This document shows, in pieces, positions 19,769 to 26,358 of a stretch of DNA of 36,929 nt. This DNA comes from Candidatus Omnitrophota bacterium (lineage in GTDB: Bacteria > Omnitrophota > Gorgyraeia > Zapsychrales > Zapsychraceae). Where the stretch lies: positions 253 to 37,181 of the forward strand of contig JAKLDK010000006.1 in assembly GCA_022703565.1 (NCBI GenBank), given 5' to 3'. The position numbers were made by a program, and so were the translations under genes. Every line of letters starts with the position of its first letter. Position 1 is the stretch's first letter. The notes under the pieces are model-generated. The model saw only the letters and a program-made list of their open reading frames with translations, was not told where the DNA came from and searched no databases.

Positions 19769-21451
19769 TTAACTTTCCTCTTTAGTAACCCTAAATATTT
19801 CATCGACCGTAGTAACACCTTTTTTGACCTTTTCCCATCCCGATTGTATTAAAGTTTTCATTCCGTTCTTTACGGCCGCTTCCTTGACCTGCCCGGCAGT
19901 CGCTCTTGCCATAATCAAATTACGAATTTGCTCATTGAAAACAAGAATTTCATAAATTGATTCTCGCCCTTTATACCCAGTAAAATGGCATTTCTCGCAA
20001 CCAACGCCTTTATATCCGATTATTTGTTTTACCTCTTTCCCGTCAAATTCCCGCACCACATCTTCGGTTAAAGTATAATTTTGTTTACAACTCGGGCAAA
20101 TAACTCTAATCAATCTTTGCGCAATCAAACATTCAACGGTACTGGTTATAAGATACGGCTCAACGCCCATGTCTAAAAGCCGCGCGATTCCGCTCGCGGC
20201 ATCGTTAGTATGCAACGTCGATAAAACCAAATGCCCGGTTAACGCAACCTGAATCGCAATTTCCGCAGTCTCAATATCCCGGACTTCACCGACCATCATA
20301 ATATCCGGGTCATGACGAAGCATTGAACGCAAACCTTGCGCAAAAGTTAATCCGACTTTAGGATTAATCTGAATTTGAGTAATTCCCTTTAACTGATATT
20401 CAACCGGATCCTCGATAGTTATAATTTTCTTATCTTCGGTATTAACCTTAGATAAAAACGAATAAAGTGTAGTTGTCTTTCCGCTTCCCGTCGGACCAGT
20501 CAAAAATATTATGCCATGCGGCCTTTTTATCACTTGATCAACGATTTTTATTTCCTCTTTGCTAAAACCTAATTCTCCCAAGTCGAATAATCGGGCTGAA
20601 TTCAAAACACGCAAAACCACACTCTCCCCGTATTGCGTCGGTAAGAATGAAACACGCAAATCAATATCCGCCTCATTAACCCTTACCTTAAACCGGCCGT
20701 CTTGCGGAACTCTTTTCTCGGCAATATTTAGGTTCGACAATATTTTAATCCTTGAATTTATAGCGTCTTTAAATACCTTTATATTCGCCGGAACTTTAGC
20801 GTCATATAAAATACCGTCAACTCGATACCTTATTTTTAGCTCATCTTCATATGGTTCAATATGAATATCCGTCGACCGGTCTTGATAAGCCTCAAAAATA
20901 ATCTGGTTTAAGAATTTGCTTATAGACGCTTCGGTTTCATCTTCGATTACTGCCGACTGATCCCGAGAAACAATATTTTGTTGTACCGAGCCCATCATCT
21001 GCTCAATTGTCTCGGCCCCAACACCGTAATATTGACGAATAGCCTCGAGAATCTCCTTTTCACTCGCTAAAACGGTCTTGATCCTGGCATTAACAACCGA
21101 ACTAATCTCATCGATTAAATGGACATCCAGCGGATGTGTTGTAGCAATAGTTAAAACATTATCTTTAAAATCGCATGGCATGATTTTATAATGGCTGGCA
21201 AATTTGGCCGGAAGTTTTTTTATGGCCATTGAGGGAATTTGCATATCCTTAAAACTAATGAAATCAACTCCCAATTGGCCGGCTAAAAGAGGCAAGAAAA
21301 CAGTTTCTTCGTCGATATACCCTAAATCTAAAAGAACCGAACCTAATAATTCCCCGGTATCTTTTTGCTTTTTTAAAGCTTTATCCAACTGCTCCGGGGT
21401 AATTATCCTTTTTTCAATAAGTAATTGGCCTAAAGGGAATCTATTTTTCAT
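19769..21451 (-). CDS. gspE: GspE/PilB-type assembly ATPase
   Basis: The 560-residue protein is a complete type II/IV secretion ATPase. An N-terminal MshEN domain (about 5-140, LGQLLIEKRIITPEQLDKAL) could bind c-di-GMP in some relatives. Then come an N2 domain (about 165-290), Walker A G319-P-T-G-S-G-K-T326, the Asp box ITIEDPVEY (344-352), Walker B PDIMMVGEVRD (382-392) and the His box LTGHLVLSTLHTNDA (404-418). A zinc site is formed by C452-P-S-C455 and C485-E-K-C488. It powers pseudopilus assembly. It heads the operon behind the extended -10 promoter at 21474-21482. PilB and GspE are hard to tell apart; the neighbours favour GspE. Confidence 0.95.
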   Translation of the reverse strand: MKNRFPLGQLLIEKRIITPEQLDKALKKQKDTGELLGSVLLDLGYIDEETVFLPLLAGQLGVDFISFKDMQIPSMAIKKLPAKFASHYKIMPCDFKDNVLTIATTHPLDVHLIDEISSVVNARIKTVLASEKEILEAIRQYYGVGAETIEQMMGSVQQNIVSRDQSAVIEDETEASISKFLNQIIFEAYQDRSTDIHIEPYEDELKIRYRVDGILYDAKVPANIKVFKDAINSRIKILSNLNIAEKRVPQDGRFKVRVNEADIDLRVSFLPTQYGESVVLRVLNSARLFDLGELGFSKEEIKIVDQVIKRPHGIIFLTGPTGSGKTTTLYSFLSKVNTEDKKIITIEDPVEYQLKGITQIQINPKVGLTFAQGLRSMLRHDPDIMMVGEVRDIETAEIAIQVALTGHLVLSTLHTNDAASGIARLLDMGVEPYLITSTVECLIAQRLIRVICPSCKQNYTLTEDVVREFDGKEVKQIIGYKGVGCEKCHFTGYKGRESIYEILVFNEQIRNLIMARATAGQVKEAAVKNGMKTLIQSGWEKVKKGVTTVDEIFRVTKEES

Positions 21452-21473
21452 AATAATATTAATATTCTTATTA

Positions 21474-21482
21474 ATTATATCA
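21474..21482 (-). promoter_or_regulatory. Extended -10 promoter of the gspE operon
   Basis: The minus strand reads TGATATAAT, a perfect TGnTATAAT extended -10, with no good -35 at normal spacing. The predicted start gives a leader of only about 15 bases with no clear ribosome site. The same nine bases occur before the prepilin gene at 22315-22323. Confidence 0.65.
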
Positions 21483-21514
21483 TTAGTTTAATTAATTCGG
21501 CTATCAATTTCTGA

Positions 21515-21548
21515 TATAAAAAAGGGCTCGCCAATTAGGCTGAGCCCT
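21515..21548 (-). terminator. Rho-independent terminator of the prepilin operon
   Basis: On the minus strand AGGGCTC and GAGCCCT (21542-21548 and 21523-21529) pair, with a bulged A and an inner GCC/GGC stem around TAATT, followed by TTTTTTAT. It closes the prepilin and 77-residue gene unit just before the gspE promoter. Confidence 0.88.
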
Positions 21549-21575
21549 AAAAATAAAAATTCAACATCTTCTCAA

Positions 21576-21809
21576 CTAAACAATTCTTCGGCCAAAAACC
21601 TTTCGAATCTTTTCAGTAATAGTTTCAATCTTACCCAGAGAAACATGTTCTTTCATCCAATTTAACGCATATTTTCTATGCCAATCTTCGAAGGCATACT
21701 CGAACCCCACATCCATCTTCTTTTTTTCGCTTTCATACCAGCGATGCTTGTTAACCTCTTCCACAACTCTAGAATCATTCAACAACTCTTTCATTTCAGG
21801 GGTTATCAT
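21576..21809 (-). CDS. Small conserved-looking protein of unknown function
   Basis: I do not recognise this 77-residue protein. It is highly charged and probably helical, with no membrane segment or signal peptide. Notable residues are many aromatics (HRWYESEKKKMDVGFEYAFEDWHRKYA, split here as 22-48) and a basic end (KIRKVFGRRIV). It is clearly a gene: a strong AGGAGGAAAT ribosome site precedes the ATG, it lies 24 bases after the prepilin gene, and a good terminator follows. Co-transcription with a prepilin suggests a role in pilin production or assembly, but that is inference only. Confidence 0.8.
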   Translation of the reverse strand: MITPEMKELLNDSRVVEEVNKHRWYESEKKKMDVGFEYAFEDWHRKYALNWMKEHVSLGKIETITEKIRKVFGRRIV

Positions 21810-21833
21810 ATTTCCTCCTATTTAAAAAATAAT

Positions 21834-22292
21834 TTAATAGGCTAAACGGCCTAATTTAGTACAAGGAAACCCGTTGCATCCCGCGTTACTGCATTCAATG
21901 TTAGAATCTTGATCAACACATAAAGAATAAAAACATTGGGCTGGAACAACTTTTCTATTAACCCTGCGAATGCAGGCTAAAGAATCTGTTGTAGGCGGAT
22001 TATAATCTGAATATCTGCCTTCCCAATTATAAAATTCCATTCTATAGGCAGGGCTTGCTTGATAAGTTTCAATATCCATCGGCAATAATCGTAAAGTTGC
22101 GGTATCCGCGTAATCATTATGCTCTAAAAAATAAAGCTTTTGCGACTCCAACAATTTGCTTAAGACATCAATTCCCTCAGCCGCTCTTACTCTCTCGATA
22201 GTCGCGATATAACGCGGAATAGCCATACTAGCAATTATTCCAATAACCACAACCACAATCATTATTTCCATTAGAGTAAAAGCTTTTTTCAT
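21834..22292 (-). CDS. Cysteine-rich type IV prepilin-like protein
   Basis: The 152-residue protein starts MKKA4 then FTLMEIMIVVVVIGIIASMAIP, a very short leader with alanine before the cleavage point and glutamate at mature position 5. The helix (5-50) is followed by a globular part with LLESQKLYFLEHNDYADT (47-64), a pattern shared by PilA/PilE-like and GspG-like pilins. The C-terminal third has six cysteines (107, 120, 125, 134, 139, 144), enough for up to three disulfides. It has its own promoter and terminator, separate from the gsp operon, so it may be a pilus subunit using the same motor. It ends in ...LGRLAY. Confidence 0.9.
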   Translation of the reverse strand: MKKAFTLMEIMIVVVVIGIIASMAIPRYIATIERVRAAEGIDVLSKLLESQKLYFLEHNDYADTATLRLLPMDIETYQASPAYRMEFYNWEGRYSDYNPPTTDSLACIRRVNRKVVPAQCFYSLCVDQDSNIECSNAGCNGFPCTKLGRLAY

Positions 22293-22389: not shown

Positions 22390-23457
<1,068 letters not shown>

Positions 23458-23570: not shown

Positions 23571-24503
23571 CTATCCAAAAATATACCCGGATTTTAAATC
23601 ATGCCCTAATGTAAAATCAAAAGCTGACATTTGTTTGCTGTCCTGCGGATGAACTTCTTTTATTAATAAAGCGCTATTTTTAGCCGCAACTACAAAACCA
23701 TTCTTATCTAAGGAAATTACTTCCCCAGCTTTATGTTCTTTACTCACCAATTGAAATACTTGCGCAGATAAAACTTTTAACATTTTGCCTTGAAAGGATG
23801 TATAAGCTGAAGGCCAAGGCAATAAACCTCGTATTTTATTATTAATAAGATTCGCATCTTCTTTCCAATCAATTTTGCCCAAATCTTTGTTTAATTTCGG
23901 AGCCAAGGTAACTTTCTTCTCATCCTGCAATATTAAATTGTAAATACCTTTCTCGATACCTTTAATTGTTGCGGTAAGAAGCCGAGGGCCTTCTTGCATC
24001 ATTTTCGCTCTTAAGGTTATGGCAGTATCAGAATCCAAAATAGCAATCGAAGCGGAACTAACAATTTCGCCGGCATCCATTTTGGCATTCATTTTTATTA
24101 TCGTTATGCCGCTTTCTTTATCACCATTAATTATAGCCCAATTAATTGGAGCAGCTCCGCGGTATTGCGGCAAAAGCGATGCATGGACATTAATCGAGAA
24201 TATTTTCGGAATATCTAAAACAGCTTGCGGTAAAATCTTGCCATAAGCAATAACAACAAACAAATCAGCCTGAAAACTTTTTAATTTATCCATAAATGCC
24301 GGATAAGTTAAATCCAAGGGCTGAAAGACTTCAATATTATTCTTTAGCGCTACTTCCTTGACCGGAGAGTAGGATACTTTCATACCCCGCCCTTTTGATT
24401 TATCCGGCGGGCAAACACACGCGCAAACTTTTACTTTAGAATTAATCAACGCTTCTAAATGAGTTGCCGCAAAATCATCACTACCAAAGAATATTATTTT
24501 CAT
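23571..24503 (-). CDS. fmt: Methionyl-tRNA formyltransferase
   Basis: The 310-residue enzyme formylates the initiator Met-tRNA with 10-formyltetrahydrofolate. The formyltransferase domain has N105, H107 and D143 at the catalytic positions, the motif SLLPQYRGAAP (109-119), and the KMDAGEIV segment (141-148). The C-terminal OB-like domain (about 205-310) is present and carries LLPWPSAYT. Length is normal. It starts 7 bases after priA without a clear ribosome site, so it probably depends on the priA transcript. A fmt-priA pairing is common in bacteria. Confidence 0.96.
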   Translation of the reverse strand: MKIIFFGSDDFAATHLEALINSKVKVCACVCPPDKSKGRGMKVSYSPVKEVALKNNIEVFQPLDLTYPAFMDKLKSFQADLFVVIAYGKILPQAVLDIPKIFSINVHASLLPQYRGAAPINWAIINGDKESGITIIKMNAKMDAGEIVSSASIAILDSDTAITLRAKMMQEGPRLLTATIKGIEKGIYNLILQDEKKVTLAPKLNKDLGKIDWKEDANLINNKIRGLLPWPSAYTSFQGKMLKVLSAQVFQLVSKEHKAGEVISLDKNGFVVAAKNSALLIKEVHPQDSKQMSAFDFTLGHDLKSGYIFG

Positions 24504-24510
24504 AGCACTT

Positions 24511-26358
24511 TTATGGATTAGTATCTAACGTAATTATCGCCCGGGATTTCTTTTTAAACTTCTTTAAACTACTCTTTATAAAACTTAACAACGTCTCCTG
24601 GTTTTTGCTTCTTAAGACAACATTATAACGGTATTGATCGCGTAATTTACTAACTTCATCAGCTTTAGAATCTAAAACTTCAACACCTTTTTTAATATTT
24701 TGCTCTAAATAATCGTGTAATTCCTGGCTTAAGCCCGCGATCTTTTCTTCGTCTGTACCGCGGATATTTATTGCAACCATAACATTATATGGCGGAAGCT
24801 GCAATTCTTTTCTTAGCTTAAGTTCTGTTTTATAAAAAGCTTTGAAATCTAACTTTTTTAAATATTTGATGCAATAATTATCCATCAAACGTGTTTGGAC
24901 AATCAACTTTTCTTTCGCCATCAAATTTAAATCAACTAATAAAGAAAACGCCTTTTGCCCACTACGAAAATCCGTTTTATTTACCTCCGCATCAAAATTT
25001 AATACAGCCACAATATCAGCTTTCATTCCATCTTTGATCTCGAGAATCGCCTGTGTCGCAATAATTACATTGGCCTCCTCCGGCAGGGCTTTGTTTTCTT
25101 TATCATAACAAAATATCTTGGCCTGCGGATAAAGCCGGGTAACTTCGCTCTCAAGTTTTTCTATTCCGGCAATGCTTGATTTCAAATAAGCCCCCTCGCA
25201 TTTGGGGCAAATTTTCGGCAAATCGCACGAAAAACCACAACGGCGGCAAAACATTTTCTTCTTTGAATAAATAAAAGTCAAATTTACGCTGCAACGCTCA
25301 CACTTTATCTTGAAACCGCATTTATCGCATTGGGTTAAAGAAGAAAATCCCCGCCGGTTGAAAAACAAAATAATTTTCTTATGTTCATCTAAAACTTTTT
25401 TTATTTGCGACTGCAAAGGATACGATAAATACGACATCTTCCCCGGGTTATAATTAGATAAATCGACCAATTGAACTTGGGCTTGGTTTTCAGCCGGAAA
25501 ATATTTATATTCCCAATCATATTTTTCTTTTTTATACCATGTTTCGGCGCTAGGCGAACTGGAAACAAAAGTTACATTGCATTTTTCATTTTCTTGACGA
25601 AGAAGCGCCACTTCCCGGGGATTATAATTCGGCGTTTGGTCTTGAAAATAAGCGGGATTGCCCTCATCTTCTACCACAATTAATCCTAAATTTCTTAACG
25701 GAGCAAATATCGAAGAACGCGAGCCAATTATTATCGGATATTTTCCGCTTTTTATTTCTAGCCATATATCTAAATCTTTTTTTGATGTAAAAGGGCTTCC
25801 CCAGCAATAAACGGGAGCATCAAATACCTTAGAAATCTCTTTAGAATAACTCTTGATTAATATTTTCTCCGGCAGCAACACTAACACGTTTTGTTTATTT
25901 TCTAAAACAGCCTTAATTTGTTCGGACAAAAAGTTAAAACATTCTTTTCTGTTTAACGAATGAGCTAAAGTAACTTTTCCTTCGGCGGCAGCAATATTGG
26001 GCAGATTCTCGGGAAAAACAAAATCAACCCTGTTTTTCTTTCGCAACACCGCCGGCAAAATTGTTTCGAGAGCTTCGCCTAAGCTGCAACCGTAAAAAGA
26101 ACTAAAACTACGAGCAAAGACTAAGTCAGCTTGAGATAAAACAGGGCTTTTATCCAAAACATCAATAACCGGATTAAGCCGGGCGAAAGGGCTTTTATCT
26201 CTAAAATCAACCACATAACCAACCGCATTACGACGGTTGAAAGAGACAAATACACGCGAACCGATAGCAATACTTTCCTGGAAATTACTATCGACAGAGT
26301 AATCGAATGGGCCTTCGATTGGAAGGCCGAAAACAACTTGGGCTATTTTTTTGCTCAT
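24511..26358 (-). CDS. priA: PriA-like primosomal protein with degenerate helicase motifs
   Basis: The 615-residue protein aligns with PriA along its length but is about 115 residues shorter than the E. coli protein. The 3'-DNA-binding domain (1-105) is normal. The Walker A GxGKT is gone (LAHSLNRKECFNF near 131-143), DEEH is V-E-D-E-G-N (229-233), GSATP is SSSPS (266-270), and the motif VI QVAGRAGR is replaced by VDLNLMAKEK (475-484). All eight zinc cysteines remain (344, 347, 353, 356, 371, 374, 384, 387), as does FNRRG (333-337). It should therefore bind forks and partners but probably does not hydrolyse ATP. Actinobacterial PriA proteins are known to lack these motifs as well. Its ATG overlaps the upstream stop. 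Confidence 0.93.
   Translation of the reverse strand: MSKKIAQVVFGLPIEGPFDYSVDSNFQESIAIGSRVFVSFNRRNAVGYVVDFRDKSPFARLNPVIDVLDKSPVLSQADLVFARSFSSFYGCSLGEALETILPAVLRKKNRVDFVFPENLPNIAAAEGKVTLAHSLNRKECFNFLSEQIKAVLENKQNVLVLLPEKILIKSYSKEISKVFDAPVYCWGSPFTSKKDLDIWLEIKSGKYPIIIGSRSSIFAPLRNLGLIVVEDEGNPAYFQDQTPNYNPREVALLRQENEKCNVTFVSSSPSAETWYKKEKYDWEYKYFPAENQAQVQLVDLSNYNPGKMSYLSYPLQSQIKKVLDEHKKIILFFNRRGFSSLTQCDKCGFKIKCERCSVNLTFIYSKKKMFCRRCGFSCDLPKICPKCEGAYLKSSIAGIEKLESEVTRLYPQAKIFCYDKENKALPEEANVIIATQAILEIKDGMKADIVAVLNFDAEVNKTDFRSGQKAFSLLVDLNLMAKEKLIVQTRLMDNYCIKYLKKLDFKAFYKTELKLRKELQLPPYNVMVAINIRGTDEEKIAGLSQELHDYLEQNIKKGVEVLDSKADEVSKLRDQYRYNVVLRSKNQETLLSFIKSSLKKFKKKSRAIITLDTNP

Follow-up and report, generated by a model that had tools for sequence, protein, structure and literature searches.

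A PriA orthologue that has lost its helicase motor is encoded in the stretch of Candidatus Omnitrophota DNA analysed here (36,929 nucleotides, hereafter the window). Across the clade to which it belongs, the ATP-binding and coupling motifs of the protein are gone, and the 3'-end-binding, zinc, aromatic-loop and C-terminal parts are conserved. Judging from these sequences and by analogy with PriA proteins that have been studied at the bench, we consider it probable (about 0.8) that an inherited priA was turned ancestrally into a pseudohelicase, which would act as an ATP-independent fork-recognition scaffold for the reloading of DnaB.

The plus strand of the region is closed by many stops, and the reading frame lies on the minus strand. 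The 615-aa protein matched the PriA model TIGR00595 over its whole length, above the curated cut-off of 230.35 bits, and NF004066 with a score short of that model's own cut-off of 813; in a phmmer search it matched 4nl4 (E = 2.7e-50). The gene, its neighbour and the parts of the protein, located by Pfam models or by alignment, are the following.

23571-24503, minus strand: fmt, methionyl-tRNA formyltransferase, immediate downstream neighbour of priA
24511-26358, minus strand: priA orthologue (pseudohelicase), 615 aa; TIGR00595 335 bits, NF004066 385.7 bits
24514-24792, minus strand: PriA C-terminal domain (PriA_C), retained, residues 523-615; PF18074 51.8 bits, above cut-off
24907-24933, minus strand: motif VI site, residues 476-484, with a five-residue deletion and the arginine finger gone; alignment
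25024-25059, minus strand: degenerate motif V (ATQAILEIKDGM), residues 434-445; alignment
25198-25329, minus strand: cysteine-rich region with eight zinc cysteines, retained, residues 344-387; alignment
25552-25569, minus strand: degenerate motif III (FVSSSP), residues 264-269; alignment
25609-25671, minus strand: degenerate motif II (EDEG, residues 230-233), then the retained aromatic-loop region NPAYFQDQTPNYNPREV; alignment
25927-25959, minus strand: motif I / Walker A site, erased, residues 134-144; alignment
26053-26340, minus strand: 3'-end-binding domain, retained, residues 7-102; PF17764 76 bits, above cut-off

In 100 of 115 loci, fmt lies near priA on the same strand, whether the motor is intact or not. 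Because this linkage is conserved, the window gene is a true priA orthologue, and priA was therefore remodelled in place, being neither a paralogue nor an import. Model scores likewise argue against a paralogue or a transfer from Actinobacteria, whose PriA is also described as poor in helicase motifs: the actinobacterial-type PRK14873 models gave at most 147 bits, versus 386 and 335 with the canonical NF004066 and TIGR00595, a comparison of model scores only. At lower coordinates than fmt, a GspE/PilB-type ATPase and a prepilin-like protein (19769-22292, minus strand) stand beside a GAPDH gene (22390-23445); the first two look like ordinary type IV pilus or pseudopilus genes.

The sequence-only reading of this DNA had named two possible objections to itself, an intact second priA and a GKT motif misplaced by an assembly error, and both fail. 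No second priA was found in the window genome (1.87 Mb in 185 contigs, 92% complete), in which the sole other match, a weak one, is part of Mfd. An assembly error or frameshift is rejected since the same architecture recurs in 70 aligned proteins; all relatives of the same order with a full match have this type of protein, of about 560-650 aa and mostly about 605-650. By sequence, the window protein is a PriA pseudohelicase of the Deinococcus radiodurans type: its ATPase motifs are non-functional, and the genome has no intact PriA to accompany it.

Read by alignment to E. coli PriA, motifs I, II, III, V and VI are all destroyed. GVTGSGKTEVY of motif I has become SLNRKECFNFL, with Cys140 as the equivalent of Lys230. 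DEEH of motif II is now EDEG, LGSATP of motif III is FVSSSP, and GTQMLAKGHHFP of motif V is ATQAILEIKDGM; at motif VI, QVAGRAGRAGKQGEV (QVAGRAGR) is replaced by DLNLMAKE, with the five-residue deletion. All the features of an active PriA helicase (Walker A GxGKT, Walker B DEEH, motifs III, V and VI) are thus absent, as the sequence-only reading had maintained for the homologue it saw. None of the Pfam models DEAD, ResIII and Helicase_C scored above cut-off in the window protein, and all three were clear in the same search of an intact Omnitrophota PriA (L035) and of E. coli PriA. An AlphaFold model from a two-row alignment reached a pLDDT of 44, too poor for judging whether the lobes of the helicase fold at all.

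The N-terminal DNA-binding domain, said earlier to be intact, is recovered by PF17764 at the score given above. The zinc site had also been described as kept, and this holds by cysteine count, all eight being aligned (344, 347, 353, 356, 371, 374, 384 and 387), but the Pfam zinc-ribbon model gives only 16.8 bits (cut-off 26). We took the columns in which intact proteins are at least 90% conserved and scored how far the main motorless clade retains them. The 3'-binding domain keeps 12 of 12 such columns (mean retention 0.93), and 100% of the clade has Asp at the position of E. coli residue 17; the two helicase lobes keep only about half. Each zinc Cys is found in 95-98% of the clade. Also kept are the Tyr and Pro residues in the loop that follows motif II and, ahead of the C-terminal domain, the residues E..R and PP. 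At the ATP site, retention falls to 9% for Lys230, 0% for Thr231, 2% for His323 and 0% for the Q-motif Gln, and to 3, 0 and 3% for the Gln, Arg and Arg of motif VI. Judged from the alignment, the loss in the main clade is focused on the ATP site.

The positions of the old P-loop have been re-conserved in the main clade: Asp stands in place of G224 in 61% of it, Arg in place of K230 in 58% and Trp in place of T231 in 67%. This clade-specific 'D.....RW' suggests that the site is under new constraint. It could be argued from this that a nucleotide site was re-invented and that ATP-dependent activity was kept. We find this scarcely credible, given that the Q-motif Gln, the Gly, Ser, Lys and Thr of the P-loop and both motif VI arginines are lost, and that the window protein, with ECFNF at that site, does not carry the RW signature. 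No helicase-type NTPase is known to us that functions when the Q-motif Gln, the P-loop residues and the motif VI arginines are all missing.

The motorless protein is widespread in this uncultured phylum. A search of 285 genomes gave two classes of PriA score, and 117 representative proteins were aligned, 70 of them motorless and 47 with a perfect motor (46 from Omnitrophota and that of E. coli). Four more intact Omnitrophota PriAs and two extremely degenerate ones (family f13) were read apart from the alignment, so that 70 aligned motorless proteins stand against 50 Omnitrophota proteins with a perfect motor; among the aligned and separately read proteins there was no intermediate. The motorless PriAs span 25 family groups, plus f13. 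The PriA pseudohelicase in Omnitrophota is real and clade-wide, and it is probably recurrent. The intact Omnitrophota PriAs have a short linker instead of a winged-helix domain, and for this reason the loss of the winged helix probably preceded that of the motor.

Some members depart from the general pattern. The two f13 frames (L208 and L209, 586-588 aa) are extremely divergent, with cysteines still present, and only a motorless-PriA profile recognises them well. Shorter motorless proteins of 531-573 aa occur in f51 (L117 and L121, genomes G058 and G062), f7 (L081, G042) and f1 (L087, G007), and most or all of their zinc cysteines are gone as well; the picture of a pore scaffold therefore fails for some members. 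The reverse decay is seen in L212 (G089, f55), which has perfect helicase motifs and has lost about half of its zinc cysteines.

Studies in E. coli indicate what the retained parts may do. The 3'-end-binding domain grips the 3' end of the nascent leading strand, and a loop from helicase domain 1 acts as a wedge in the fork. In the structure, the pore that takes the lagging-strand ssDNA and leads on to the loading of DnaB is built from the cysteine-rich region, helicase domain 2 and the C-terminal domain (PMC10175261). The DnaB loading assays were done with K230A PriA (PMC10175261), and the ATPase-dead K230R protein (priA300) still supports primosome assembly and restart (PMC7326373). Both ATPase and helicase activity are lacking in the PriA of Deinococcus radiodurans, which nevertheless binds forks and DnaB and has been proposed to be an ATP-independent replisome reloader (PMC4504706).

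With the recognition parts kept and the motor absent, an ATP-free scaffold that brings DnaB is the best-supported reading, and the restart scaffold proposed in the sequence-only reading fits the pattern of loss and retention. A vertically inherited priA would have been converted in the ancestor of the lineage into a pseudohelicase. This protein would hold the fork and the lagging-strand ssDNA without hydrolysing ATP, and would recruit the replicative helicase DnaB, either directly or through the loader DciA. Forks with a double-stranded lagging arm would be opened by other means or restarted less well.

It may be asked whether the motorless PriA is instead a decaying remnant, with restart taking another route (PriC-like, RecG or DnaA-dependent). 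Divergence is indeed fast, many end branches being longer than in intact genes; it is extreme in f13, and the zinc site has been further lost in f51, G042 and G007. We nevertheless regard decay as very unlikely, since full-length open frames persist in dozens of families across deep divergence, the 3'-binding residues and zinc cysteines are near-invariant and the position in the fmt operon is conserved, none of which a drifting pseudogene would retain. Full-length frames at divergences down to about 35% identity imply a selected function.

The closest known case is the PriA of Deinococcus radiodurans (Lopper et al. 2015, PMC4504706), an orthologue in which the ATPase motifs are likewise dead and the DNA-binding regions kept. 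By description, the changes in the PriAs of Deinococcus-Thermus lie mainly in Walker A, where Lys has become Arg, and in Walker B. In the window protein nothing of the P-loop can be recognised, motif VI is shortened by a deletion, and motifs III and V have been lost as well; it comes from a different phylum, and the loss is independent. The PriAs of E. coli and Klebsiella (4NL4, 6DGD, 8FAK) have the same order of parts, a 3'-binding domain, helicase lobes with an inserted zinc region and a C-terminal domain, but the window protein lacks two things that E. coli PriA has, the intact motor and the winged-helix domain (118-residue linker). Intact Omnitrophota PriAs (for example L035, f40) are orthologues in the same fmt neighbourhood, have no winged helix and a linker of 48-62 residues; unlike the window protein they have perfect helicase motifs, and TIGR00595 gives 677 bits versus 335. 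Our literature search found no report of a motorless PriA outside Deinococcus-Thermus. The kind is already known from Deinococcus; new, as far as the searched literature shows, are the phylum, how complete the loss of motifs is and its likely recurrence.

Nearly all bacteria conserve the motor of PriA, yet E. coli can live without it, and the Omnitrophota finding bears on the question of why bacteria keep it. Families of this phylum that are closely comparable differ in whether they have the motor, and the gene has stayed in its operon. This amounts to a natural experiment, and a comparison of forks, SSB, loaders and repair genes between them could show what makes unwinding by PriA dispensable.

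The sequence-only reading had added that the lineage needs another helicase to open the fork, and here we could not follow it. RecG is present in 52 of 52 genomes, with motorless and intact PriA alike (in the window genome it is split over two contigs), and UvrD-family helicases are present in 51 of 52; the exception is the window genome (92% complete), in which no UvrD-family gene was found. The near-universal presence of both kinds of gene would suit a scaffold working with a dedicated fork-opening partner, whether RecG, a UvrD-family enzyme or one as yet unknown. However, both are equally present beside intact PriA, UvrD-family genes were not found in the window genome itself, and among the helicase genes tested in the 52 genomes (RecG and UvrD-family) no substitute or gene gain tracks the loss of the motor. 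Moreover, restart in E. coli does not require unwinding by PriA (priA300/K230R; PMC7326373). A partner helicase thus appears doubtful; it would supplement the scaffold reading and does not compete with it.

DnaB was found in the window genome and in all 22 genomes tested. The gene for the loader DciA was not found in the window genome (G000), but its contig C153 ends right after dnaN, and the absence is uninformative. Loss of the loader was considered and set aside, given that gyrB, and mostly dnaN too, are missing in the same MAGs. The origin-proximal dnaN-dciA-gyrB block is wholly or partly missing in G000, G001, G006, G013, G033, G040 and G046, even at 91-95% completeness, and the cluster is intact in G007 (L233). 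The block is probably missing through a gap in binning or assembly, which can mislead claims of gene loss. In the window's order, dciA is highly divergent (L217-L226), and PF05258 scores at or below cut-off in several genomes.

How often the motor was lost was addressed with a species tree of RpoB and RpoC from 71 genomes. On this tree the majority of motorless genomes fall into a single clade with strong support, and motor loss is ancestral to that large clade. Families f18 and f43 and the sister pair f31/f44 are motorless and placed among intact families, and the motorless f51 belongs by kinship to a different class; the supported branches force at least four changes. Repeated loss in several other families appears likely on this basis. 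The differences between the main clade (linkers of 21-42 residues, a motif VI deletion of five residues) and the outlier families (linkers of 27-53 residues, mostly different in length, and deletions of 0-2) would suit independent decay. Where the sequence-only reading had left the choice between an independent and an ancestral origin, both apply: the loss is ancestral within the large clade, independent of Deinococcus and probably of Actinobacteria, because the intact priA of sister families adjoins fmt and canonical PriA models match better.

One ancient motorless priA might instead have spread horizontally into f18, f31, f43, f44 and f51. In the PriA tree, f18, f43 and f44 do fall close to the main motorless clade at moderate support values (83-86), and a single origin on the RpoB-RpoC tree, imposed as a one-clade constraint on a 26-genome subset, was rejected only marginally (p-AU 0.0395). 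The PriA gene tree is long-branched, however, and could not settle the number of losses; its long branches are prone to attraction, and the RpoB of the outliers is full-length, their linkers mostly differ and their motif VI deletions are not those of the main clade. We hold such spread to be rather unlikely. That the motor was discarded several separate times in the phylum, and that in the large clade the old ATP site was re-conserved as a 'D.....RW' surface, is a tentative proposal to which we would give somewhat less than even odds. If true, ATP-independent restart would be a stable alternative that has been favoured repeatedly, rather than a peculiarity of radiation-resistant bacteria.

The same tree genes gave two further observations. 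A gap of about 78 positions in RpoB (TIGR02013 220-297) is common to the sampled members of the main motorless clade (for example L194, L181 and L182) and, set against other Omnitrophota, is a clean clade marker. In genome G224 (f42), rpoB and rpoC are fused in one open frame of 2590 aa (L166).
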